Origin: Betaproteobacteria bacterium HGW-Betaproteobacteria-8
GTDB lineage: Bacteria; Pseudomonadota; Gammaproteobacteria; Burkholderiales; Methylophilaceae
DNA length: 23,109 nucleotides
Assembly: GCA_002842135.1 (NCBI GenBank)
Contig: PHCD01000018.1
Coordinates: 1-23,109, forward strand
Direction: 5' to 3'
Below are positions 5,730 to 22,065 of this stretch, in pieces. The position numbers and the translations under genes were made by a program. Position 1 is the stretch's first letter. Every line of letters begins with the position of its first letter. A model generated the notes under the pieces. It was given only the letters and a program-made list of their open reading frames with translations. It did no database searches and was not told the origin of the DNA.

Positions 5730-6791
5730 ATGACCGACTTTGCACGCGCGCTTATCCAGTGGCAGAAAATCCATGGTCGTCATGACCTCCCCTGGCAGAA
5801 TACTCGGGACCCTTATGCCATCTGGGTGTCGGAGATCATGTTGCAGCAGACCCAGGTGTCGGCTGTCATTGCCTATTACCAGAAATTCATGCGACGCTTT
5901 CCCGACATTGCCAGTCTGGCCAGTGCCGGGCAGGACGATGTACTGCAGCACTGGAGCGGCCTCGGTTACTATTCAAGAGCGCGTAACCTGCATCGCGCCG
6001 CGCAAATTCTGGTGCAGGAACACGCAGGATGCTTCCCGGGAAATTTTGAGGCAATTCAAACCCTGCCCGGCATTGGCCGCTCGACCGCCGCGGCAATTTC
6101 CAGCTTTGCCTTCGCGCATCCGCAACCTATTCTCGACGGCAATGTAAAACGTGTGTTTGCCCGCCACTTCCTGGTAGAAGGCTGGCCCGGGTCACTCAAG
6201 GTGGAAAAACAGTTGTGGAAGCTGGCGGAAAGGCTGATGCCGCAATCGGAGGTCATTGCCTATACCCAAGGTTTGATGGATATGGGGGCAACCTTGTGCA
6301 CACGTAGCAAACCACGTTGCAATGCCTGTCCTTTGCAATCCACATGTGGCGCTTATATGGAAAACCGGGTGCAATCGCTACCTGAAGCCAGGCCGCGCAA
6401 GGTGTTGCCGGAAAAAAATGCCACCATGTTGCTCCTGCTGCAGGGAGATGAGATTCTGCTGGAAAAGCGCCCACCGAGCGGTATATGGGGTGGACTCTGG
6501 AGTCTGCCGGAAGTGCCGGATGACGTCGATGTACAGGAACTCGCTCGCGAACGCTATGGTGTAGAAGCGGAGCTTCTGCCCAGCCTGCCGGTGCTGACGC
6601 ATACCTTTACGCATTTTCGATTGCATATCACACCGCAACCTTTGCGCATCACCAAAAATTTGAACCAGGCGAGACAGGCATCGTTTGTCATGCTGGGTCA
6701 TGAAGATGCCATCGGCGCGGCCTTGCCGGCACCAATCAGAAAAATCCTTACCGGACTCAGTTCTAGCCGGCCTTGCGAAAAGTCAGGTTGA
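5730..6791 (+). CDS. mutY: A/G-specific adenine DNA glycosylase MutY
   Basis: Base-excision repair enzyme that removes adenine mispaired with 8-oxoguanine. The 353 residues match the family. Visible landmarks are SEIMLQQTQV with catalytic Glu35, the helix-hairpin-helix LPGIGRSTAAAI (about 112-123), catalytic Asp136 in ILDGNVKRV, and a [4Fe-4S] cluster Cys190-x6-Cys197-x2-Cys200-x5-Cys206. The C-terminal Nudix-like domain that recognises 8-oxoguanine starts near residue 230 (GIWGGLWSLPE). The ATG at 5730 is chosen over an upstream in-frame TTG at 5703 because it gives the usual N terminus and has AAAGG 11 bases before it. The 3' end overlaps the convergent alkB by 29 bp. Confidence 0.96.
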   Translation: MTDFARALIQWQKIHGRHDLPWQNTRDPYAIWVSEIMLQQTQVSAVIAYYQKFMRRFPDIASLASAGQDDVLQHWSGLGYYSRARNLHRAAQILVQEHAGCFPGNFEAIQTLPGIGRSTAAAISSFAFAHPQPILDGNVKRVFARHFLVEGWPGSLKVEKQLWKLAERLMPQSEVIAYTQGLMDMGATLCTRSKPRCNACPLQSTCGAYMENRVQSLPEARPRKVLPEKNATMLLLLQGDEILLEKRPPSGIWGGLWSLPEVPDDVDVQELARERYGVEAELLPSLPVLTHTFTHFRLHITPQPLRITKNLNQARQASFVMLGHEDAIGAALPAPIRKILTGLSSSRPCEKSG

Positions 6792-7404
6792 TGCGCTGAT
6801 TGCCTAGCGTGGGATGGTGGCCCGGTTTGACGGGCAAAACACCATGAAAGCGCAGACGGTCGATGCCACCCCAGACCACCACATCCCCATGCATAAGCGG
6901 TAATCGCAAGACCCGATCCGGGCGCTTCAATCCGCTGAACAGAAAGATGGCAGGGATACCGAGAGAAACCGAGACGATGGGTTGGCTGAAGTCCTGCTCG
7001 TCTTTGTCCTGGTGCAAGCCCATTTTGGCACCGGGTTCGTAACGATTGATCAGGCAGGCATCTGGCTGGAAGTCGCTGAATCCGGCCGCGTTTGCAGCAT
7101 TGTGTGCCAGTAATGAGAAAATGTCCGGCATGCGGGGCCATGGCTTGCCGCTGACGGGGTCTGTCGTTTCATAGCGGTAGCCATGCCTGTCCGACACCCA
7201 GCCCAATGCGCCGCAGCTGCTGGTTCGGACAGACATCTTCTGGCCGCCGGGAGTCGTCATTTCGCGCAAGGACGTCTCTGCAAGTATCAGGCTCAGCGCT
7301 TCCAGCAGTGCCATTTCATGGCTGAGCGCAAACCCGCTCAGCGCCCAGGATTCAGGGCCAATTTGCAGTTTTCCGGATTCTGCTAATGCGTCGAACATAT
7401 CCAT
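6763..7404 (-). CDS. alkB: DNA oxidative demethylase AlkB
   Basis: Fe(II)/2-oxoglutarate-dependent dioxygenase that directly reverses 1-methyladenine and 3-methylcytosine damage. The 213 residues align almost without gaps to E. coli AlkB. Iron ligands His131, Asp133 (LHQDKDE) and His187 (RFHGV) and 2-oxoglutarate-binding Arg204 and Arg210 (RINLTFR) fall at the same numbers as in E. coli as I recall them. The substrate-lid segment LINRYEPGAKMGLH is intact. The ATG at 7404 has AAAGG six bases upstream. The gene runs tail to tail into mutY with a 29-bp overlap and no terminator between them. Confidence 0.95.
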   Translation of the reverse strand: MDMFDALAESGKLQIGPESWALSGFALSHEMALLEALSLILAETSLREMTTPGGQKMSVRTSSCGALGWVSDRHGYRYETTDPVSGKPWPRMPDIFSLLAHNAANAAGFSDFQPDACLINRYEPGAKMGLHQDKDEQDFSQPIVSVSLGIPAIFLFSGLKRPDRVLRLPLMHGDVVVWGGIDRLRFHGVLPVKPGHHPTLGNQRINLTFRKAG

Positions 7405-7426
7405 TCACGACCTTTGAGATCAATGT

Positions 7427-7462
7427 AAAAAAGCCCCCTGACCTACGGATGAGGGCTTTTTT
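7427..7462. terminator. rho-independent terminator downstream of the Fae-like gene
   Basis: AAAAAAGCCC at 7427-7436 pairs perfectly with GGGCTTTTTT at 7453-7462. Read on the minus strand it lies 42 nt after the Fae-like stop and ends in six T, a classic terminator. It lies just upstream of alkB and so separates the two minus-strand units. Confidence 0.85.
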
Positions 7463-7504
7463 ACAGCTTGCTTATAAGCTCTAACCGTTCAGGGGGTAGC
7501 TGGC

Positions 7505-8056
7505 TTAGATATCGCCCCAGCTTTCGTCCCACATACAGTGCTTGATGGTATGACGGTTCTTGATCAACTCGTCAATTGAAGGCTCGTCATTCAGTGCACG
7601 TTTGATCGCCAGCTTGGTGGCTTCATAGTTGTTCTTGTACATGTCGGCCTTGTCTAGCTTGCCTTCCTTGGCCAGAGCAGCACAACCCGGGTCAATCCAC
7701 ACCAGGCTGACGATACACAGGTCGTTGACCTGGTCTTTGGGGATGATGCCTTCGATCACGCAGTCAACAATCGCGTCTGCAGTCGCGGCCTGTACCACGC
7801 CACCGAACAGTTCGATATTGATTGAGTCCTTGAGGGTGACTTTAGGCACCATCATGGCCGCTGGGCGGACCAGTTGGTTGATGTCGCGTACGACAAACAT
7901 CGCGGTGTGGCCCTTGCTTTGCGCCATCATATTGGCAAATGCGGTACCTACCGGGCCATCGACGGCACCGATGAGGATTTCCGGCATGGCAGCGGTAACG
8001 TCTTTACCTTCGCTGTAAACAGTGGCTTCACCAGCCTTGAAAACGATTTTGGACAT
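7505..8056 (-). CDS. formaldehyde-activating enzyme (Fae) family protein, catalytic His replaced
   Basis: Fae condenses formaldehyde with tetrahydromethanopterin in methylotrophs. This 183-residue protein is clearly of the family: GPVGTAFANMMAQ, the central VPKVTLKD...FGGVVQAATADAI segment, VIEGIIPKDQVNDL, and the YKNNYEATKLAIKRAL signature near the C terminus. Two departures stand out. Where canonical Fae has A-H-I-D-L-I-I-G with the catalytic histidine, this protein has A-M-P-E-I-L-I-G, with Met24 in the His place. It also carries an insertion around SLVWIDPGCAALAKEGKLDKAD and an extra C-terminal tail with HTIKHCMWDESWGD. It is therefore more likely a Fae paralogue (Fae2/Fae3-like) than the housekeeping enzyme. 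The ATG at 8056 has AAAGGAA upstream; it stands alone between a promoter and a terminator. Confidence 0.88.
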   Translation of the reverse strand: MSKIVFKAGEATVYSEGKDVTAAMPEILIGAVDGPVGTAFANMMAQSKGHTAMFVVRDINQLVRPAAMMVPKVTLKDSINIELFGGVVQAATADAIVDCVIEGIIPKDQVNDLCIVSLVWIDPGCAALAKEGKLDKADMYKNNYEATKLAIKRALNDEPSIDELIKNRHTIKHCMWDESWGDI

Positions 8057-8091
8057 GGAATTCCTTTGATTAATGAGTGGGGAAAAGCGTT

Positions 8092-8120
8092 ATTTTACCG
8101 AAGCGTGTCGCATTCAACAA
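8092..8120 (-). promoter_or_regulatory. putative sigma70 promoter of the Fae-like gene
   Basis: On the minus strand TTGTTG (8120-8115), a 17-bp spacer and TAAAAT (8097-8092, 5/6 match to the -10 consensus) lie 35 nt upstream of the Fae-like start codon. Spacing is optimal and the position fits a single-gene transcript. Confidence 0.5.
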
Positions 8121-8178
8121 ATGCCAGGAAGCCGGCAAGCAGATTGAAAATCAATTGCTTAGGACGGCGTTGGATGAT

Positions 8179-8595
8179 TTAAAGCGGCGCGTTGCTTAAT
8201 TGCATATCGCGGTGCGGGATTCCGGCATCCGGGTATTCATCGCTGCACACAGTGAAGCCGGCTTTTGCATAGAACGGGATGGCATGGGTCTGTGCCGAAA
8301 GCCTGACAGGTTGCCAGCCATTAAGCCTGCACAGTCGAATGGCTTCCTGTAACAACGCAGTGCCTATGCCTCGCCCGCGCCAGTCCGGCAATACCGCCAT
8401 GCGGCCGATGCTGCCATTGTCCAGGATCCGGGCACAGCCGACGGCTTTCCCTGACAAATCCAGCGCCAGCAGATGTCTGGCTTCCGTATCCAGTCCGTCC
8501 CATTCCAGCGCTGGCGGTACCTGCTGTTCCTGGATAAAAACCGCGGTGCGTATGGCGCTTAACTGGTCTTTTCCGGCAGGCCATTCAACTTCCAT
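8179..8595 (-). CDS. GNAT family N-acetyltransferase
   Basis: Acetyl-CoA-dependent acetyltransferase of unknown substrate. The 138-residue form shows an early IRTAVFIQEQQVP segment (as in the ElaA/YjcF-like group), the strand GCARILDNGSIGRMAVLP, and the acetyl-CoA-binding loop WRGRGIGTALLQEAIRL (Q/RxxGxG/A). The C-terminal PFYAKAGFTVCSDEYPDAGIPH closes the domain. The ATG at 8595 puts the usual 12-15 residues before IRTAVF. A TTG at 8667, overlapping the stop of the upstream lipoprotein gene as TTGA, would add 24 residues without recognisable structure and is considered less likely. Substrate cannot be told from sequence. Confidence 0.85.
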   Translation of the reverse strand: MEVEWPAGKDQLSAIRTAVFIQEQQVPPALEWDGLDTEARHLLALDLSGKAVGCARILDNGSIGRMAVLPDWRGRGIGTALLQEAIRLCRLNGWQPVRLSAQTHAIPFYAKAGFTVCSDEYPDAGIPHRDMQLSNAPL

Positions 8596-8663
8596 AATCT
8601 TGAACCTGGTCGCGAAACTGGTCTCGCATCTGGCCTTGAAACTGGCAGTTTGATCAGCGCGGC

Positions 8664-8879
8664 TCAATTGGTCTCAGCATCAATATCCTGCTGCATTTTT
8701 GCGGCAGACTGTTCGATGGAAGCGGCAGCGGCTTCAGCATCTTTCAACACTTCACGCTGGTCTTCTGCGATTTTGGGAGTCGGGTCCGTCGGTGAGCAGC
8801 CGTTCAAAATGAGGCCAAGCAATATCAAACCAACAAATTGTGAGCTGTTGAAAAAGGATACGGGCGTGATGTCCTGCAT
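8664..8879 (-). CDS. small lipoprotein, 71 residues
   Basis: The N terminus has a hydrophobic stretch FVGLILLGLILNGC with a lipobox (LNGC) near residue 28, so the mature protein has about 44 residues. These form one acidic amphipathic helix (EDQREVLKDAEAAAASIEQSAAKMQQDIDAE), alternating Ala with Glu/Asp/Gln. An unusually good GAGGAGG ribosome site precedes the ATG at 8879. It lies 5' of the GNAT gene on the same strand and 87 nt from the divergent doxX-like gene. No family is recognised; a coiled-coil partner in the envelope is possible. Confidence 0.75.
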   Translation of the reverse strand: MQDITPVSFFNSSQFVGLILLGLILNGCSPTDPTPKIAEDQREVLKDAEAAAASIEQSAAKMQQDIDAETN

Positions 8880-11960: not shown

Positions 11961-12815
11961 ATGAAAAATACCGCAACGCTTTTGATTACATGCCCGGACC
12001 AAAAAGGGCTGGTTGCGGCAATTGCCGATTTTCTCTATCGGCATGATGCCAATATTCTCCATGCGGATCAGCATCAGGACAGCGAAAACAATCTGTTCCT
12101 CATGCGTGTGGAGTGGGATCTGGAAGGTTCATCGCTCAGTCTCGATGGGTTTGCCGAGGAATTCGCGCCAATTGCCAGCCGCTTCAATATGAGCTGGCAA
12201 CTGAAGTCCACGCAAAAGCGTCCACGCGTTGCCATCATGGTTTCGCAATATGATCACTGCTTGGCTGACTTGCTACATAGGCATCAGGGCGGCGAACTCA
12301 ATTGCGAGATTTCACTGATTATCAGCAATCACCGTCATACGGAGAAACTGGCCGAGTTTTACGGTATTCCTTTCCACTATATCGAAGTGAACAAGGATAC
12401 CAAGGCGCAGGCAGAAGCGCAGCAGTTCGCCTTGTTCGACCGGCACGAGATTGATCTCATTGTGCTGGCGCGCTACATGCAGATACTGTCGCCGGATTTC
12501 GTCAAACGCTATCCGCAGCGCATCATCAATATCCACCATTCCTTCCTGCCGGCCTTTATTGGCGCACGGCCCTACCATCGCGCCTTCGAGCGTGGCGTGA
12601 AGCTGATCGGCGCTACCAGTCATTATGTGACTGAAGTGCTGGATGAAGGCCCGATCATCGAACAGGACATCACACGGATTTCCCATCGTGAACAGGTGGA
12701 AGACTTGATCCAGAAAGGTCGCGACCTGGAACGTGTGGTGCTGTCGCGTGCAGTGCGCTGGCATATCGAAAACCGCATCCTGGTCTATGCCAACAAGACG
12801 GTGGTTTTTGACTGA
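11961..12815 (+). CDS. purU: formyltetrahydrofolate deformylase PurU
   Basis: Hydrolyses 10-formyl-THF to formate and THF, balancing the one-carbon pool. The 284 residues have an N-terminal ACT regulatory domain (about 5-80, TCPDQKGLVAAIADFLYRHDANIL), and a formyltransferase-fold domain from about 88. The catalytic triad common to this fold is visible: Asn190 and His192 in NIHHSFLPAF and Asp228 in VLDEGPIIEQD, with the expected spacing of 36 from His to Asp. In a methylotroph it would release formate for oxidation as well as serve purine and glycine control; that context is inferred. It has its own extended -10 promoter and a terminator. Confidence 0.96.
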   Translation: MKNTATLLITCPDQKGLVAAIADFLYRHDANILHADQHQDSENNLFLMRVEWDLEGSSLSLDGFAEEFAPIASRFNMSWQLKSTQKRPRVAIMVSQYDHCLADLLHRHQGGELNCEISLIISNHRHTEKLAEFYGIPFHYIEVNKDTKAQAEAQQFALFDRHEIDLIVLARYMQILSPDFVKRYPQRIINIHHSFLPAFIGARPYHRAFERGVKLIGATSHYVTEVLDEGPIIEQDITRISHREQVEDLIQKGRDLERVVLSRAVRWHIENRILVYANKTVVFD

Positions 12816-14607: not shown

Positions 14608-14636
14608 TTGACAGGAGGCTGGACTGGGATTACCGT
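14608..14636 (+). promoter_or_regulatory. candidate promoter of the pilin operon
   Basis: A perfect TTGACA -35 at 14608-14613 is followed after 17 bp by TACCGT, only a 3/6 match to the -10 box. Such a promoter would depend on an activator or be weak. It would leave a leader of about 85 nt before pilE. Confidence 0.3.
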
Positions 14637-14727
14637 TCATCCGTCACCCGAAACCGGTTGTCAGTTCCGGGTAGATTTCAGGAAATTTTTAAAGCAGCAT
14701 ACATTTCAGCGCAAAAGGGGATTAAAA

Positions 14728-15165
14728 ATGCGAATCAGAAAACAGCATAATGGCTTCACGTTAATTGAGCTTATGATAGTCGTTGCAATTATAGGCATCA
14801 TTTCGTCGATTGCCTTCCCCGCATATCAGGATTATGTTGCTCGCGGCAAAATCACTGAGGCCACCTCGGGTTTGTCTGACCTCCGTGTGAAGCTGGAACA
14901 GTACTATCAGGACAACCGCACTTATGCAGGTTATGTCGATGGCAGCTGCATTCGCACTAGCGACGGCAAGCCCGCGATTAATTCCAATAGCTTCACTGTT
15001 GCTTGCGAAAGTAATGCCGATACTTTCAAGATTACTGCGACCGGCAAAGCTACGGGAGGAATGACCGGTTACAGCTACGATATTAACCAAGGAAATGTCA
15101 AGAACTCTTCAGTGCCCGGTGGCAGCGGTGCTTGCTGGATCATGAGAAAAGGCGGCTCATGCTAA
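14728..15165 (+). CDS. pilE: type IV pilin PilE-like
   Basis: A 145-residue prepilin. The leader MRIRKQHNG is cut before FTLIELMIVVAIIGIISSIAFPAYQDY, with Glu5 present for assembly and a N-terminal helix typical of type IVa pilins. The globular part has a KLEQYYQDNRTY segment common to betaproteobacterial PilE proteins. Two pairs of cysteines (SCIRT/VACES and GACWIMRKGGSC) may close loops near the C terminus. The ATG at 14728 has AAAAGGGG seven bases upstream; the frame is open back to 14608 but that part is untranslated leader. As the first gene of a minor-pilin operon it may be a minor rather than the major subunit. Confidence 0.9.
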   Translation: MRIRKQHNGFTLIELMIVVAIIGIISSIAFPAYQDYVARGKITEATSGLSDLRVKLEQYYQDNRTYAGYVDGSCIRTSDGKPAINSNSFTVACESNADTFKITATGKATGGMTGYSYDINQGNVKNSSVPGGSGACWIMRKGGSC

Positions 15166-15722
15166 CTAATCATTTTATGCGAATGCAGCATGGTTTTAGC
15201 CTGATAGAAATGGTTATTGCGACTGCGATACTGGCGATCCTTGCGGCAATTGCCGTTCCCAGTTTTGCGCAGATGATACAGAACAGCCGTATCCGTACAG
15301 CGGCCGAATCGATTCAGAACGGGTTGCAAGTAGCACGCGCCGAAGCGGTCAAGCGTAATACCATGGTGAAATTTCAACTGAATGCAGACAGTAGCTGGAT
15401 CGCCTGCGTGATCGCCAATGCAGGCGATAATTGTGTTAATGATCCGGCCAATGCAGATTACATACAGGGCCGTTCAACGGCTGAAGGTTCTACTGCAGAC
15501 GTGACTGCGACAGTCACTCCAGCCGGCAATACAACAGTGGTCTTTACCGGGCTTGGTTTGATTGCGCAGGGTACGAATCCGTTTACGCAGGTGGATGTCG
15601 ATATGGATGAGGCGGTGATGTCACCTGCTGACAGTCGTGACTTGCGCATCCTTCTGGGTGCTGGTGGCAGTGTTCGCATGTGTAACCCCAATCTTGGCGC
15701 GGATGATCCTCGCGCTTGTTGA
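15159..15722 (+). CDS. fimT: GspH/FimT family minor pseudopilin
   Basis: A 187-residue prepilin with leader MLTNHFMRMQHG and mature FSLIEMVIATAILAILAAIAVPSF, then the SRIRTAAESIQNGLQVARAEAVKRNTMV segment diagnostic of the GspH/FimT family. The C-terminal RDLRILLGAGGSVRMCNP matches the typical closing strands. Its start overlaps the pilE stop by seven bases; AAAAGG lies six bases before the ATG at 15159. In-frame ATGs at 15177 and 15183 are possible but give shorter leaders. It belongs to the tip complex that primes pilus assembly with PilV, PilW, PilX and PilY1; some FimT proteins also bind DNA during uptake. Confidence 0.9.
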   Translation: MLTNHFMRMQHGFSLIEMVIATAILAILAAIAVPSFAQMIQNSRIRTAAESIQNGLQVARAEAVKRNTMVKFQLNADSSWIACVIANAGDNCVNDPANADYIQGRSTAEGSTADVTATVTPAGNTTVVFTGLGLIAQGTNPFTQVDVDMDEAVMSPADSRDLRILLGAGGSVRMCNPNLGADDPRAC

Positions 15723-15732
15723 GGGAAAGATG

Positions 15733-16185
15733 ATGACGATGAAAAACAAATTTCCAGTTCGCAAAGCCATATCTACCATTTCGCACAGCAAGTCACAGCA
15801 AGGCATGGCGTTGCTGGAAGCCCTGATTGCCGTGTTGATTTTCTCCATGGGCATATTGGCACTGGTTGGATTGCAAGGGGCTATGGTCAAGAACACATCT
15901 GACAGCAAATATCGGGCGGAAGCGACCTTTATTGCGCAGCAGAAATTGGGGGAGGTTTGGGCTAACGCCAAGAGCCATAATACTTTTGGCAGTTATGCCG
16001 TTGTTGATGAGGATATTTCCGTTTTATTGCCGGGAGGCAAACGCACAGTGGCGATTTCGCCCGCCCCGAATTGCCTGGTGACGGTGACGGTGAGCTGGCA
16101 AATGCCTGGCGGCGACATACACAATCACACGACCAATGCGCGCGTTAACAGCATGGCCGAGCCAGGCACCTGTATCTATAAATGA
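15733..16185 (+). CDS. pilV: type IV pilus minor pilin PilV
   Basis: A 150-residue prepilin: a long leader (about 24 residues) ending QQG, cut before MALLEALIAVLIFSMGILALVGLQG, with Glu5 present. MALLEALIAVLIFSxGIL is typical of PilV. The SKYRAEATFIAQQKLGEVWA segment and the VTVSWQMPGGD strand also fit. Three clustered ATGs (15730, 15733, 15739) follow GAGGGAAAG; 15733 has the best spacing. The fimT stop lies ten bases upstream and pilW begins seven bases after the stop, so the operon is tight. Confidence 0.88.
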   Translation: MTMKNKFPVRKAISTISHSKSQQGMALLEALIAVLIFSMGILALVGLQGAMVKNTSDSKYRAEATFIAQQKLGEVWANAKSHNTFGSYAVVDEDISVLLPGGKRTVAISPAPNCLVTVTVSWQMPGGDIHNHTTNARVNSMAEPGTCIYK

Positions 16186-16192
16186 GGCCCCA

Positions 16193-17350
16193 ATGGTTAT
16201 GAGCGGAATGCACGAAAAAGTTGAATTACACAGCCAGTCTGGCTTCGGTCTGGTGGAGGTGATGGTTGGCATGGTTATCGGCCTGCTGGCGACTCTGGTG
16301 ATCATGCAGGTGTTTTCCACTTACGAGAATCAGCGCCGCGCGACCACCGGCAGTTCGGACGCCCAGACTAACGGCAGTATTGCGCTCTTCAATTTGCAGC
16401 GCGATATCCAGATGGCAGGTTATGGCCTGCCTATGCCGATGGCAGATCCGGAAAATTCCTCGCTGAAGTGCAACTTGTTGCCTGAGTATGACCCCGATGC
16501 CGATCCGGTGACCGATAACAGCATCAAGTTGTTCCCGATCGAGATTGAAAATGGCGTTGATGATTCCAGCGATATCATCAAGGTGCGCTACAGTAGGAAT
16601 GCTGCCGGTGCCGTGCCTACCAAGATCGTAAACCATACGCCAATCAACGATATCGTTGTTGATCATAATCTAGGTTGCAAGGACGGTGATGTTGCAATGA
16701 TTAATCAAGGTAATGCGTGCATGATGACGCTGGTGGCAACGGTAGCAATTGATGGCTATGGACACGGAGGCGGATCCAATGATGATACGCATATTGGTTT
16801 GGTTCCAACAACGCCGCTTGGCCCGCCACTCAGCAATAGTGCCATGCTAACCTGCATGGGAGACTGGCAGGAATACCGTTATGTGGTCGTGAACAACCAG
16901 CTGAGACGTCAGACGATTTCCGGCAATCTAGCAGATAACGAGGATAATGTCCTGGTTGATGAAATCGTTGTCTTGCAGGCGCAATACGGTGTTTCGGCGA
17001 CAGCGGACAGTAACCGGGTAACGGAGTGGAGGGATGCGACCGGCAACTGGACCCCTGCCAATCTGGCTGCGAACGTGGATCGGCGCAATCGCATCAAGGC
17101 TGTGCGTGTTGCCGTGGTTGCGCGGAGTGGGCAGCGTGAAAATGAAGTCGTTACCCAAGTCTGTACCACTGACAAGGGTACCGTTAACAACGGTCCATGT
17201 GCCTGGGATGATACCGATTTCGATGCAGCGCCGAAGATTGATCTTTCCCCTTTGTATGCGGTGGCGAATGAGTGGCAACATTACCGTTACCGTTCTTTTG
17301 AAACCATCGTCCCCTTGCGCAACATGCTCTGGTCCAGGGATGCGCTATGA
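16193..17350 (+). CDS. pilW: type IV pilus minor pilin PilW
   Basis: A 385-residue minor pilin. The prepilin site is SQSG before FGLVEVMVGMVIGLLATLVIMQVFSTYENQRRATTG, with Glu5 present and the ENQRR-TTG segment typical of PilW. The large globular domain carries six or more cysteines (for example LKCNLL, GCKDGD, ACMM, TCMGDW, QVCTTD and PCAWDD). LNLQRDIQMAGYG-like text (FNLQRDIQMAGYGLP) is a PilW landmark. The start ATG at 16193 has TGAGG five bases before it; a second ATG at 16199 is possible. The stop overlaps the pilX start as ATGA. Confidence 0.92.
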   Translation: MVMSGMHEKVELHSQSGFGLVEVMVGMVIGLLATLVIMQVFSTYENQRRATTGSSDAQTNGSIALFNLQRDIQMAGYGLPMPMADPENSSLKCNLLPEYDPDADPVTDNSIKLFPIEIENGVDDSSDIIKVRYSRNAAGAVPTKIVNHTPINDIVVDHNLGCKDGDVAMINQGNACMMTLVATVAIDGYGHGGGSNDDTHIGLVPTTPLGPPLSNSAMLTCMGDWQEYRYVVVNNQLRRQTISGNLADNEDNVLVDEIVVLQAQYGVSATADSNRVTEWRDATGNWTPANLAANVDRRNRIKAVRVAVVARSGQRENEVVTQVCTTDKGTVNNGPCAWDDTDFDAAPKIDLSPLYAVANEWQHYRYRSFETIVPLRNMLWSRDAL

Positions 17351-17406
17351 AATTCAGAACCATGAAATCCAGAACTCCGCAATCAAGAACTTTGAAATCG
17401 GCCGGT
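17347..17406 (+). repeat. tandem 15-bp coding repeat in the pilX leader
   Basis: Four consecutive 15-bp units start at 17347, 17362, 17377 and 17392. Units 1 and 2 differ at two positions (ATGAAATTCAGAACC and ATGAAATCCAGAACT); unit 3 keeps the AATC-AGAACT half and unit 4 keeps the TGAAATC part. Each encodes five residues, so gain or loss of a unit keeps the frame. Confidence 0.7.
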
Positions 17407-18021
17407 ATGCAAACGTGGCGGCAACGCGGCGTGGTGTTGTTTATCGCGCTGATTGCCCTGCTGGTGATGTCTCTGGCGGCGGTAGCGTTGATCCGCTCGG
17501 TGGACACCAACACCATGATTGCCGGCAACCTTGCATTGCGACAATCGGCGTTGACTTCCTCCGACCGGGGAGCGGAAACGGCAATGAACTGGCTGGATGC
17601 CAAAGCATTGGCTAATCTGGCTGAACTGGACGGCAACAACGTAGGGGAAGGGTATTACGCCACCTATTTCCCCACTATTGACGCCAACGGCGACGGTGTT
17701 ACTGATGACGAGGATGACAGGCTGTTCGCAAAAAGCCTGGTTGATAACAATGGCGTGCTGGATACCGCTGATGATGGCCAGGGCAATAAAATCGAATACA
17801 TCGTACAGCGTATGTGCCTGAATCCGGCACCGCCGGCCAACGATGCCACCAATAAATGCATGCTGGGTAAGCCGGAGACCGACACCAGCAGTTTCGCCGT
17901 CAAGGATGCTCCAGAAGCCGGCGCTATCGTCAATACAAATCAAAGTCCCATCTATCGCGTCACGGTCAAGGTGACTGGGCCGAAAAACACCGTGAGTTAC
18001 ACGCAAACCTATGTCTATTAG
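17347..18021 (+). CDS. pilX: type IV pilus minor pilin PilX with repeat-built leader
   Basis: A 224-residue PilX-type protein. After the leader ending QRG the mature helix reads VVLFIALIALLVMSLAAVALIRSVDTNTMIAGN; Glu5 is absent, as in GspK/PilX tip subunits. The leader consists of pentapeptide repeats (MKFRT, MKSRT, PQSRT, LKSAG) encoded by tandem 15-bp units, so ATG occurs at 17347, 17362 and 17407. A loop DANGDGVTDDED near residues 117-128 matches an EF-hand/dockerin-type calcium site. The start overlaps the pilW stop. PilX forms a complex with PilY1, the next gene, at the pilus tip. Confidence 0.88.
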   Translation: MKFRTMKSRTPQSRTLKSAGMQTWRQRGVVLFIALIALLVMSLAAVALIRSVDTNTMIAGNLALRQSALTSSDRGAETAMNWLDAKALANLAELDGNNVGEGYYATYFPTIDANGDGVTDDEDDRLFAKSLVDNNGVLDTADDGQGNKIEYIVQRMCLNPAPPANDATNKCMLGKPETDTSSFAVKDAPEAGAIVNTNQSPIYRVTVKVTGPKNTVSYTQTYVY

Positions 18022-18030
18022 GAGCAGGTC

Positions 18031-21000
18031 ATGAAGTTCTATCAACAAGGATATGCGCAATTATTCAAATGGCTGTTGGGCATGATGTTGCTCGCTACAC
18101 TCGTATTGCCCGGCCTGGCGCGGGCAGCAGGCGTCACTACGCCGCTGGATCTGGCGACTGTGCCGCTGGCCAACAGCCCAACGATTACCATACAGCCTAA
18201 CCTTTTGTTCGTGCTCGATGATTCCGGCAGTATGGAATGGAATTTCATGCCGGACCAGTTTGGCTACAATTTAAGCAGTCAGGATCAAAAAAAATGCCGT
18301 AAATATGTTGGAGAAAATTCCAGCAGCACTAAGCGCACTCAATGTTCAGGCGGTAATAGCAACGGCATGGGCGATGGCGGCGATCCGCCGATTTTTAGCT
18401 ATCGAATCAATACGGTTTATTACAATCCGGCTGTTTATTATGAGCCTCCGGTGAATCCATGCAATTTTTCTGAGCACTTGCCGAGCCAGACGAATTGGGC
18501 CAGTGTGCGTACCGATGGATTGAAGATCGATGCCAGTTGCAATCAGACTTCGGGTACAAGAGATCTGCTGACGACTTATCCTGAGCGTGTGTATTGTAAT
18601 AGCAGCGGGGTTGGTAGGGATACACTGACAACCCTTAATTCCGGTTCCCGTACATGTAAGCAGAACGGCATAGATCAAATTGCAGGGGTTGACGGCGATT
18701 ATGATTATCCTCAGACCACTGGCAATTGGTATGCCACCGGTAGCGGTTTTGGAACTTATGTGTACGCCAGGGACTACAACAGCAATCCGCATTATTACAA
18801 TGTGATTCCGCGCGAGCACTGCGCGGACAAATCGCTAGTGGACTGCACATTGACGTCGGTGCCTATTGCAGGCTATCCAGAACCGGCTTATGTGCGGTAT
18901 TGCAGCACAGATGCCCAAGCCAGCAGCTCAAGTGTGCAAACGGGAGCCGGTAAATGTCAGGCTGCATTTGACCGGGAGACTTCTGTTACCCCGGAAACTT
19001 TTACTTATGCTCGTTATGGCAACTTTCAACGGGTGGATATCGTTTCTTCTGTGGGTAGTTACCCCAAGGTCCTTGCCAGGACGGATTGTGCCGGCGCAAC
19101 TTGCACCTATAGCGAGGAAATGACCAATTTCGCTAACTGGTATGCCTATTACCGGACACGTATGCAGCTGATGCAATCATCCGTCGGGCTGGCATTCAAG
19201 GACGTTGGAGAAGACTTCCGGGTCGGCTTCATGACCATCAAACCTATATCTAGCGAGTCTGTGAATTTTGGCACGTTTAACACAGCGCACAAGTCTGCCT
19301 GGTATAAAAAACTCTATTCCATCACTGGGGACAGTGGTACTCCCTTGCGTGAAGCCTTGGGCAAGGCGGGACGTATCTATGCGGGTAAGGAAACCGTCAG
19401 CGGTGCTTTTACCGACCCTATGGAATACGAGTGCCAGCAGAACTTTACATTGCTGACAACGGATGGATTCTGGAACGGTAATGCCGGCGTGAAAGTAGAC
19501 GGTTCTGCCATGACTAATCAGGATGATAATGCGGAAACGCCACCACCCAAGTCTGAAGGTGGTATTGATAGCATAAATTCCTTGGCGGACACGGCAAAGT
19601 ATTATCGTGATACGGACTTACGTACAGGGGCGCTGGAGAACTGTCCTGGTGCGCTAGGGGCGTCAGTCTGCGAGTCGCCAGGCACTTCCGAAGCCAACAA
19701 GAAGCAGACTATGGTCACACTGACTCTGGGTCTTGGTGTGGATGGTACCTTGGCTTACATAACGGACTATAAAACGGCGTTATCAGGAGATTTCTTTGAA
19801 ATCAAAACTGGTTCCAAGGATTGGCCCAAGCCTGTGGGGGACACCCCAACGGCGATCGATGACCTCTGGCATGCTGCGGTTAATGGTGACGGTACCTATT
19901 TTAGTGCGAAGGACCCTGCAGAACTAACTCAGTCGATGAAGGAGGCACTGGCGTCGATTGAAGTCAAGCTAGGAGCTGGCGCCGCCGCGGCCACCAGTAC
20001 CTTGAACCCGGTTTCAACCGATAATGATGCATTTGTTGCCAGTTACACGACAGGCCATTGGACCGGAAATCTTGAAAAGCGCTCGATTGATCCAGTCAGT
20101 GGCGCGGTTAGCGGTACGACCGCGCCCGGCAATTGTGTTGAGGATGTGGTGATTTCCGCCAGTTGTACTGATCCATCCAGCATCGAGGCAAATGGCGCAG
20201 GGGGCTATAACTGTGTGACGCCGGACGTTACAGTGGAAACTGCTTGTGTAGGTGGTACTTGGGATGGGGTGGCTAATACCTGCAGTGTGCCGGTTGCAGC
20301 CTCTTGTACTGGTACGCTGAAAAATAAGGTGTTACCGTTTGAAGATTTCAGAAAGATTTACAAGAACAGCGGTAGTGGTTTGGATAACTTCACCTACACC
20401 AATCTTACTCCGGAAGAGAAGACTACCTTTGAACCGGCTTTTCTGTCAGAAAATTTGACCCAGTGGCCATTGCTGACCGCCGAACAGCAGACGCTGATCA
20501 CGGGGGAAAGTCTGGTGAACTACCTGCGTGGACAGACTGGTCTGGATGAGAATGCTGAAGATCCTATTAACAAGGTATTCCGTAAACGTCAGGCCGTATT
20601 GGGAGATGTGATTAATGCCAAGCCGGCGTTTATTGGCAAACCGACTTTCAGCTATGTGGATTATGGATATGACTCGTTCAAATCCACTAAGGCAACTCGT
20701 GCGGGTATGGTCTACGTGGCATCGAATGATGGCATGTTGCATGCATTTAATGCGGCAACTCTGGAAGAGGTCTGGGCCTATGTACCCAGCATGGTGATTC
20801 CAAACATGTGGAAGTTGGCGGATACGGCTTACGACACCAAGCACAGCTACTATGTCGACGGTGATCCGGTGATTTCCGATATTTGTGTGTCCGGTTGCGG
20901 TGGTGCAGGGGCCACCTGGAAGACTATACTGGTGGGTGGGCTGAATGCAGGCGGGCGCGGTTACTATGCGCTGGATATCACTGATCCGACATCTGCAGAT

Positions 21001-22065
21001 GGGCCTGAACTGCTCTGGGAGTTCGATGCAAATGACGCCCCCAATCTTGGATACACGTTCGGCACGCCGGTCGTGACCAAGGATCCTGATGGCAAATGGG
21101 TTGTGCTGGTGACTTCCGGCTATAACAATATCCCGGACGATAGCTCTTTTTATAACGATGAAGGTGTGAAGTTCAAGCCCAATAACCCGCCGCAGTTCAT
21201 GACAGGTGACGGCAAAGGTTATCTGTATATTCTCGATGCCGTGACCGGTAGCAAACTGACGGAGATTTCGACTGGCGTCGGTACTCCTTCTTTGCCAAGC
21301 GGGTTAGGAAAGATCGCGGCCTATGCTGAAGATCCAGAGAGAAACAATACGGCCAACTTTGTTTATGGTGGCGATTTGTTAGGCAATCTTTGGCGTTTCG
21401 ATCTTAGTGACAATTCGGTGATGAAGCTGGCGCAGTTGGATTCCGGGCAACCTATTACTGTCAAGCCTGAAATCGGTTTGATCAAGAAAAAGCGTGTAAT
21501 CTTCTTCGGTAGCGGCAAATATCTGGAAGTTACCGATCTCACTAACACCGATCAGCAGACGCTGTATGCCATCAAGGACGATAATCTGGCGACGACCGTT
21601 GCTGACCCGCGTGGTACGCTGGTGGAGCAGACTATGGAGATCAATGGCGATGTGCGCAAGATTACGTCGAATAATGCGGTCAATTGGGATAGTGATCTGG
21701 GCTGGTATATCAACTTCCCGGAGACCGCAGAACGGCAGCACGTGGCCTCCAAGTTGATTCTGGGTACCTTGCTGGTGCCGACTACCGTGCCGACCTCATC
21801 GGCCTGCCAGCCGGCCGGTCATGGCTGGTTTACTTTCCTGGATTTTCGGACCGGTCGCTCGGTATTGGATGACAATATTGTTTCTACAATGACCAGTTCG
21901 CCCGTGGTTGGTTTTAATGTGGTTTATATCGATGGAAAACCCAAGGTCTCGATTGTGACTGCGGATAACCCAACACCGAAGTTGATTCCGGGCGTGCCTT
22001 TCTCCGGCTCAGGCTCCGGATTTACGAGGACGAGATCCATCTGGCGCGAATTGATTACAGATTGA
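18031..22065 (+). CDS. pilY1: type IV pilus tip adhesin/assembly protein PilY1
   Basis: A 1344-residue secreted protein that primes pilus assembly with the minor pilins and acts as tip adhesin or surface sensor. It has a signal peptide ending ARAA, then a von Willebrand A-like domain with the MIDAS motif LDDSGSM (about residue 64) and later segments TPLREAL (about 436) and LLTTDGFWNG (about 475). A Cys-rich insertion fills about residues 85-365. A second Cys-rich block lies near 701-760. From about 853 the PilC/PilY1 beta-propeller begins (RQAVLGDVINAKPAFIG) with YVASNDGMLHAFNA, VGGLNAGGRGYYALDIT and VYGGDLLGNLWRFDLSD. AGGAG lies six bases before the ATG. It ends the operon. Confidence 0.95.
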   Translation: MKFYQQGYAQLFKWLLGMMLLATLVLPGLARAAGVTTPLDLATVPLANSPTITIQPNLLFVLDDSGSMEWNFMPDQFGYNLSSQDQKKCRKYVGENSSSTKRTQCSGGNSNGMGDGGDPPIFSYRINTVYYNPAVYYEPPVNPCNFSEHLPSQTNWASVRTDGLKIDASCNQTSGTRDLLTTYPERVYCNSSGVGRDTLTTLNSGSRTCKQNGIDQIAGVDGDYDYPQTTGNWYATGSGFGTYVYARDYNSNPHYYNVIPREHCADKSLVDCTLTSVPIAGYPEPAYVRYCSTDAQASSSSVQTGAGKCQAAFDRETSVTPETFTYARYGNFQRVDIVSSVGSYPKVLARTDCAGATCTYSEEMTNFANWYAYYRTRMQLMQSSVGLAFKDVGEDFRVGFMTIKPISSESVNFGTFNTAHKSAWYKKLYSITGDSGTPLREALGKAGRIYAGKETVSGAFTDPMEYECQQNFTLLTTDGFWNGNAGVKVDGSAMTNQDDNAETPPPKSEGGIDSINSLADTAKYYRDTDLRTGALENCPGALGASVCESPGTSEANKKQTMVTLTLGLGVDGTLAYITDYKTALSGDFFEIKTGSKDWPKPVGDTPTAIDDLWHAAVNGDGTYFSAKDPAELTQSMKEALASIEVKLGAGAAAATSTLNPVSTDNDAFVASYTTGHWTGNLEKRSIDPVSGAVSGTTAPGNCVEDVVISASCTDPSSIEANGAGGYNCVTPDVTVETACVGGTWDGVANTCSVPVAASCTGTLKNKVLPFEDFRKIYKNSGSGLDNFTYTNLTPEEKTTFEPAFLSENLTQWPLLTAEQQTLITGESLVNYLRGQTGLDENAEDPINKVFRKRQAVLGDVINAKPAFIGKPTFSYVDYGYDSFKSTKATRAGMVYVASNDGMLHAFNAATLEEVWAYVPSMVIPNMWKLADTAYDTKHSYYVDGDPVISDICVSGCGGAGATWKTILVGGLNAGGRGYYALDITDPTSADGPELLWEFDANDAPNLGYTFGTPVVTKDPDGKWVVLVTSGYNNIPDDSSFYNDEGVKFKPNNPPQFMTGDGKGYLYILDAVTGSKLTEISTGVGTPSLPSGLGKIAAYAEDPERNNTANFVYGGDLLGNLWRFDLSDNSVMKLAQLDSGQPITVKPEIGLIKKKRVIFFGSGKYLEVTDLTNTDQQTLYAIKDDNLATTVADPRGTLVEQTMEINGDVRKITSNNAVNWDSDLGWYINFPETAERQHVASKLILGTLLVPTTVPTSSACQPAGHGWFTFLDFRTGRSVLDDNIVSTMTSSPVVGFNVVYIDGKPKVSIVTADNPTPKLIPGVPFSGSGSGFTRTRSIWRELITD

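Follow-up and report, generated by a model that had tools for sequence, protein, structure and literature searches.

What becomes of a formaldehyde-activating enzyme (Fae) when methionine stands in the column of its catalytic histidine? The question is raised by fae2, a gene for a 183-aa protein on the minus strand of contig PHCD01000018.1 from Betaproteobacteria bacterium HGW-Betaproteobacteria-8; the whole stretch of DNA analyzed (positions 1 to 23,109 of the contig, 23,109 nucleotides) is called the window, and the product of fae2 the window protein. A first-pass annotation, made from the sequence alone, had described a Fae homologue with Met for the catalytic His, and had proposed that it may bind formaldehyde or a pterin as sensor, buffer or regulator. 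We find that Fae2 probably does a real job in the tetrahydromethanopterin (H4MPT) pathway rather than being a dead copy, because it is inherited with this pathway and is the sole Fae left in a number of pathway genomes.

A fixed methionine at the catalytic column

The window protein scored 197.6 bits with the Pfam Fae profile (PF08714; cut-off 27) and 139.7 bits with the TIGR03126 one_C_fae profile (cut-off 118.05), scores that place it in the Fae family. The Fae fold was retained in its predicted monomer structure, computed from an alignment that included His- and Glu-type sequences (named for the residue at column 24) beside Met-type ones; an earlier prediction from Met-type sequences alone, with a predicted local distance difference test score (pLDDT) below 50 at residues 49-67 and 70-76, was set aside. 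A-M-P-E-I-L-I-G of the window protein aligned without gaps with A-H-I-D-L-I-I-G of M. extorquens Fae (1y5y), so that Met24 occupies the column of His22, which we take to be the catalytic residue. The first-pass annotation had allowed for another histidine aligning at this position; this was checked, and column 24 is Met.

Three protein-database searches were made, with the window protein, canonical (His-type) Fae and a third, Glu-type paralogue as queries, and all 360 of the matches listed (120 each) were read. Column 24 was Met in 119/119 readable matches listed with the window protein (one of the 120 was truncated there), His in 120/120 listed for the canonical query, and Glu in 119 and Asp in one of the 120 listed for the third type. 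Met was likewise read in 120/120 genomic Met-type copies, which cover 120 of the 133 Methylophilaceae genomes with a Met-type Fae (see below), so Met24 is not a sequencing slip, and a 299-row alignment held only M (223), H (62) and E (13) at this column, one row being truncated. The Met-type is a fixed type, not a mutant; profiles, alignment and matches bear out the substitution as first described.

The comparison with Fae, Fae2 and Fae3 suggested in the annotation was run as a 141-row tree (midpoint root; bootstrap not settled). Each type lay on one side of a branch, the His-type was split from the Met- plus Glu-types by a 100/100 branch, and the window protein fell outside the His-type (canonical) side. 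The His/Met/Glu counts equalled the fae/fae2/fae3 counts published for Methylophilaceae strains (PMC4109929, Table 4) in 4/4 matched genomes (strain 11, JLW8, 301 and M. mobilis 13); the Met-type is therefore Fae2 of Methylophilaceae, a name already used for this family (PMC4109929, PMC3728764), and the Glu-type very probably corresponds to Fae3. The features of the gene are as follows, the counts out of 120 referring to the matches listed in each search.

7505..8056, minus strand: fae2, Met-type Fae paralogue, 183 aa, whole PF08714 domain (ATG start, open reading frame (ORF), profiles, alignment, model)
7985..7987, minus strand: codon of Met24, column of M. extorquens Fae His22 (alignment and homologue columns)
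7979..7981, minus strand: Glu26, column of Fae Asp24 (E 120/120 in Met, D 120/120 in His, E 120/120 in Glu search)
7907..7909, minus strand: His50, candidate replacement acid/base (conserved in the Met- and Glu-type rows ungapped there)
7841..7843, minus strand: Lys72, H4MPT-contact column (K in 120, 119 and 120 of 120 in Met, His and Glu searches)
7835..7837, minus strand: Thr74, H4MPT-contact column, invariant in Met- and Glu-types (T 120/120 in each search)
7790..7792, minus strand: Gln89, H4MPT-contact column (Q in 120, 119 and 120 of 120 in Met, His and Glu searches)
7697..7699, minus strand: Trp120, Phe in canonical Fae (W 120/120 in Met, F 120/120 in His, W 120/120 in Glu search)
7655..7678, minus strand: extra loop, residues 127-134 (columns gapped in His-type Fae)
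7538..7540, minus strand: His173, common to all three types (column counts)

The pterin contacts of canonical Fae are presumably Asp24, Leu53, Lys71, Thr73 and Gln88 (UniProt/HAMAP list). In these five columns the window protein has the Lys, Thr and Gln, with Asp replaced by Glu and Leu by Phe. Lys72 and Gln89 were each present in 223/223 Met-type, 13/13 Glu-type and 62/62 canonical rows of the larger alignment; the canonical rows were less uniform at column 74 (T 40, D 22) and column 26 (D 57, E 5). Column 50 was His in 119/120 Met-type matches listed (one gap) and in 120/120 Glu-type matches, and was Phe in 119 and Val in one of the His-type matches; the 62 canonical rows had V 39, D 14, I 3, A 3, M 1, N 1 and F 1, and no His. 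From these columns the invariant His50 is a candidate substitute for the lost catalytic histidine. Trp120 was W in 221/223 Met-type rows.

Two smaller departures from canonical Fae had been described, and each stood in part. The insertion rich in Trp, Asp and Cys corresponds to the real extra loop at 127-134, which is short; Ala126-Leu128 were themselves missing from 62% of Met-type rows. In the C-terminal tail, Cys174 (81%) and Trp176 (89%) are type-specific; His173 is no departure, because all three types share it.

Distribution with the H4MPT pathway

We searched 187 Methylophilaceae genomes (the family of G007, Methylovorus sp. MM2) for Fae, the window protein, the Glu-type, Mch and FTR, and the pathway was scored as Mch or FTR; the genomes are related, and the counts are not independent. 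Canonical Fae was counted by subtraction, after a fragment in G018 was dropped.

Met-type Fae and pathway: both 130, Met-type only 3, pathway only 7, neither 47
Canonical Fae and pathway: both 97, Fae only 2, pathway only 40, neither 48; after inspection of broken copies (G136, G169), 95 pathway genomes with and 42 without canonical Fae
Glu-type Fae and pathway: both 65, Glu-type only 1, pathway only 72, neither 49

Mch or FTR was thus present in 130/133 Met-type genomes, and Met-type Fae co-occurs with the H4MPT pathway. The Fae-less genomes are small (0.8-1.4 Mb in the 20 listed) and fit, by size, the streamlined methylotroph lineages described as lacking the H4MPT pathway and said to use tetrahydrofolate (H4F) alone (PMC6794327). 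Three genomes, G112 (0.8 Mb), G120 (1.3 Mb) and G175 (2.3 Mb), had Mch and FTR and no Fae of any type. Three records titled Candidatus Methylopumilus (L004, L011, L012) carried Met-type fae and Mch; PMC6794327 reports the H4MPT pathway in no Ca. Methylopumilus strain, and these bins may be mislabelled.

To look beyond the family, we used the window protein as query against 399 Burkholderiales genomes. Met-type Fae was found in 14 non-Methylophilaceae genomes (Met read in 14/14), and Mch in all 14 (in pieces in G213 and G358). A further 21 genomes had canonical-like matches only (31-39% identity, and classed by identity; in G456 there is, in addition, a short piece at 46%), and Mch was present in 16 of these; Mch was absent in 8/8 tested of the 356 Burkholderiales genomes without a Fae match. 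One Burkholderiales genome, G512, had a Fae 42% identical to the window protein, probably Glu-type, and no Mch.

A number of pathway genomes lack intact canonical Fae. Among the 133 Met-type genomes, 28 had no other Fae and 9 had Met- plus Glu-type only; a canonical query against these 37 found no canonical Fae, the best identities (28-37%) lying at the Met/Glu places. G070, one of the 28, has no pathway marker. For the 67 genomes with a single His-type by subtraction, 18 were inspected: 15 copies were whole, those of G136 (truncated) and G169 (frameshifted) were remnants, and that of G125 was a piece at a contig end, counted as present. With the two remnants included, 38/130 Met-type genomes with the pathway are without intact canonical Fae (the Met-type is the only Fae in 29, and 9 also have the Glu-type), a number that may be low because 49 of the 67 were counted by subtraction only; put the other way, 38 of the 42 pathway genomes without canonical Fae have Met-type Fae. 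The reverse case, canonical without Met-type, was seen in 3 pathway genomes (G058, G092, G188). Patchy assembly alone does not explain this 38-to-3 asymmetry; in G182 (2.604 Mb), G118 (1.755 Mb) and G067 (2.026 Mb) all or nearly all of the genome is on one contig. A Met-fae gene tree (120 tips, midpoint root) gave 18 losses of canonical Fae, an upper figure because gene-tree error inflates the count. Broken canonical genes were seen at L241 (truncated), L242 (frameshifted) and L244 (truncated), in genomes keeping Met-type fae; the genome of L244 holds another, whole canonical fae.

The median ratio of nonsynonymous to synonymous substitution (dN/dS) of fae2 was 0.015 for 36 pairs without and 0.066 for 261 pairs with canonical Fae (the pairs overlap and are not independent), and fae2 is under purifying selection. 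Fae2 was more conserved than the ten neighbours tested; against the gene read as ispH, median identities were 92.9 and 82.5% over 24 shared loci, a comparison that favours fae2 because its 80 loci were picked by fae2. Between genomes with and without canonical Fae the sole difference in Met-type Fae was a weak one at position 15 (T or S), with none at the active site.

Gene order gives a second link to the pathway. In 2 of the 14 non-Methylophilaceae genomes (G445, G245), fae2 lies in the order fhcA-fhcD-fhcC-fae2-pabB (L229, 6120-12464; L232, 8171-14321), with a pabB that carries a second domain similar to PRK07546 proteins. All five genes were identified by profile in G445; in G245 pabB was identified by profile and the fhc genes by similarity to G445. 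Gene calls by length were unreliable in the GC-rich relatives and so were made by GC content at third codon positions (GC3). Nine neighbours from G525, G435, G304 and G350 matched no H4MPT family, and one G445 ORF matched no family.

What Fae2 may do in the pathway

Fae2, a fixed Fae paralogue, would work inside the H4MPT pathway of formaldehyde oxidation. Keeping the Fae fold and most pterin-pocket residues, it would bind H4MPT or methylene-H4MPT. By holding the pterin it may help formaldehyde to condense with H4MPT; the usual His acid/base would have no part in this, and His50 might serve instead. Where canonical Fae1 has been lost, such activity would suffice to supply the pathway; in genomes that have Fae1, Fae2 would be a second member of the pathway, connected with the Fhc complex and either slower or tuned differently. 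We regard the chances as evenly balanced that its role in the H4MPT pathway includes direct support of formaldehyde entry. A more specific proposal is doubtful as a whole, and we put it forward tentatively: that Fae2 catalyses the condensation without His22, the acid/base histidine having moved to where canonical Fae has Phe49 (His50 here). On this view the enzyme would be slower or adapted to low formaldehyde, and would be the only one that activates formaldehyde in a large minority of the Methylophilaceae with an H4MPT pathway, which would have lost canonical Fae several times; Glu-type Fae3 would be a third catalytic solution.

Several observations weigh against Fae2 as a working member of the pathway that can stand in for Fae1. 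Met-type Fae occurs with neither marker in G057, G070 (0.7 Mb) and G185, and seven genomes have a pathway marker and no Met-type Fae (canonical Fae in G058, G092 and G188; Glu-type only in G165; no Fae in G112, G120 and G175). The 47 genomes with neither Met-type Fae nor a marker probably represent a single streamlined lineage or a few related ones, so that few independent co-losses underlie the association. In 12 of the 14 non-Methylophilaceae genomes no fhcA, fhcC, fhcD, pabB or MfnF-like gene was found near Met-type fae (flanks <1 to ~10 kb). Met24 and the rest of the Met-type sequence are unchanged where canonical Fae was lost. To these are added results from published genetics, in which fae2 and fae3 are taken by their published names, their catalytic residues unread: the delta-fae1 mutant of M. 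universalis shows no growth on one-carbon (C1) compounds despite fae2 and fae3, deletion of fae2, fae3 or both leaves growth like wild type, and fae3, or fae2 with fae3, can be removed from a revertant with growth kept (PMC5023235); and M. alcaliphilum fae3 rescues an M. extorquens fae mutant neither on plates nor in liquid (PMC11748545).

Other reported phenotypes are mixed. Methylamine revertants arise from M. universalis delta-fae1 and none from the fae1 fae3 double mutant, and for delta-fae1 delta-fae2 the paper is inconsistent, with growth in Table 1 and none in the text (PMC5023235). M. alcaliphilum fae1-2 rescues the M. extorquens mutant on plates and not in liquid, and fae1-2 and fae3 mutants are stated to grow normally, the data not being shown there (PMC11748545). 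Deletion of fae2, so named, in Methylobacterium aquaticum slows growth on methanol, which its authors interpret as a contribution to methylotrophy (PMC7356819).

Next to a direct part in formaldehyde entry we place, as plausible though short of an even chance, a non-catalytic H4MPT-binding regulator or carrier, which would hold or report methylene-H4MPT and tune the Fhc complex or pterin supply, spontaneous condensation sufficing where Fae1 is lacking. Such a protein would accord with the absence of the catalytic His across the whole clade, with a Met24 unchanged where the Met-type is the only Fae, with the position of fae2 between fhcC and pabB in two genomes, with the moderate transcription of the fae2/fae3 types in Methylophilaceae irrespective of conditions (PMC3728764), and with the silent deletions of fae2 and fae3 in M. 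universalis and of fae3 in M. alcaliphilum (PMC5023235, PMC11748545). However, spontaneous condensation is not always enough, because M. universalis needs Fae1 for C1 growth with fae2 and fae3 present; the slower methanol growth of the M. aquaticum deletion also counts against this reading, as does ecotype 7 of Methylophilaceae, which has no true Fae, has Fae2 and a full H4MPT pathway (noted there as remarkable), and grows on methanol and methylamine (PMC4109929).

The role first proposed, that of a sensor, buffer or regulator for formaldehyde acting apart from H4MPT, we consider improbable. It takes support from the His-to-Met change and from sensing or signalling roles already suggested for Fae homologues (PMC3728764, PMC4109929), but Met-type Fae is present in 3/50 marker-free and 130/137 marker-bearing Methylophilaceae genomes, the marker-free genomes fit by size the streamlined methylotrophs without H4MPT genes (PMC6794327), the pocket residues are kept, and PF08714 is the sole domain found. 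The part of the proposal in which the protein may bind a pterin agrees with the invariant Lys72, Thr74 and Gln89 and the predicted Fae fold. A sensing or buffering function outside C1 metabolism is not supported, because distribution and the two gene orders tie Fae2 to H4MPT; and lack of catalysis is possible rather than likely, because 38/130 pathway genomes are without intact canonical Fae.

An enzyme of H4F-linked C1 transfer, or one moving C1 units between H4F and H4MPT, has been put forward for the Fae homologues of methanotrophs and Methyloversatilis (PMC5023235, PMC11748545). We hold this about as improbable for Fae2: 47/50 marker-negative genomes have no Fae whatever, and streamlined relatives are said to use H4F alone (PMC6794327); the variant with transfer between the two pterins is compatible with Fae-less marker-negative genomes. 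A decaying, functionless paralogue, as loss of the catalytic residue might suggest, is refuted by the invariant active-site region, the low dN/dS medians and, with the bias stated above, the conservation of fae2 over ispH.

For Fae paralogues the papers cited suggest sensing, H4F-linked transfer or C1 shuttling. The distribution found here speaks against roles independent of H4MPT and singles out natural strains that have no Fae1. Should Fae2 be the enzyme in them, a catalytic histidine at position 22 would be dispensable for formaldehyde activation, and a finding of 'no true Fae' in surveys of methylotroph genomes could not be taken as 'no enzymatic entry to H4MPT'.

Surroundings of fae2 and comparison with known proteins

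The two features that follow fae2 in the window are:

7424..7465, no strand assigned: perfect 13-nt inverted repeat with A/T runs, terminator-like, between fae2 and alkB (arms 7424-7436/7453-7465)
6763..7404, minus strand: alkB (DNA oxidative demethylase), next gene downstream of fae2 (profile matches)

The annotation had given fae2 its own promoter and terminator. The inverted repeat with its T-run downstream of the gene agrees with the latter; it was missed by a consensus terminator scan because its loop is 16 nt and the scan allows 3-8 nt. A sigma-70-like promoter scan of 6700-8700 found 0 sites (1.2 expected in shuffled sequence), so that a promoter of its own is not supported. The claim that C1 genes are missing beside fae2 is broadly true in the window; alkB follows it, and a candidate purU (formyltetrahydrofolate deformylase, as read from sequence) lies at 11961-12815, about 4 kb from fae2, in the same position relative to fae2 in a number of relatives. 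A functional pairing of alkB with fae2 was rejected, alkB lying within 3.5 kb of fae2 in just 2/59 loci; the usual neighbours within that distance of Methylophilaceae fae2 are mutY (43/59), GNAT (43/59) and doxX (49/59). A run of putative type IV pilin-like and PilX/PilY1-like proteins occupies 14608-22065 of the window. The closest sequence to the window's is L001 of genome G186 (99% protein identity; 77-79% DNA identity over two aligned stretches), a genome with, by count, one His-, one Met- and one Glu-type Fae and with Mch.

By copy number the window protein belongs to the same family as the published Fae2 of Methylophilaceae, for which an ecotype lacking Fae1 was already known; the accounts in PMC4109929 and PMC3728764, in the portions available, do not mention that the catalytic column holds Met or Glu, that Fae2 goes with Mch/FTR across the family, that 38 pathway genomes lack an intact canonical Fae, or that the gene can lie between fhc genes and pabB. 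Our literature search on a His/Met paralogue of formaldehyde-activating enzyme, or on papers naming its His22, found none. Fae groups 2-4 of PMC11748545 are likewise Fae-like proteins whose function is stated there to be unknown; the likeness is one of description.

Compared with the canonical enzyme (5,6,7,8-tetrahydromethanopterin hydro-lyase; 1y5y, and 1y60, which we take to be the ligand-bound form of what is presumably a homopentamer), to 27 rows of which it is 26-32% identical, the window protein has Met24 for His22, Glu26 for Asp24, His50 for Phe49, Trp120 for Phe, and a longer loop. EfgA-type formaldehyde sensors are DUF336 proteins; the DUF336 domain is absent from the window protein, in which PF08714 was the sole domain found at E 0.001. 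A group of Glu-type paralogues (L131-L138, L144) carries His-Arg instead of Asn-Tyr at columns 143-144. The Glu-type, Fae3, shares with the Met-type its side of the tree and Pro25, Glu26, His50 and Trp120, and differs in having Glu (119/120) or Asp (one) at the catalytic column and in its patchy occurrence, in 66/187 genomes.
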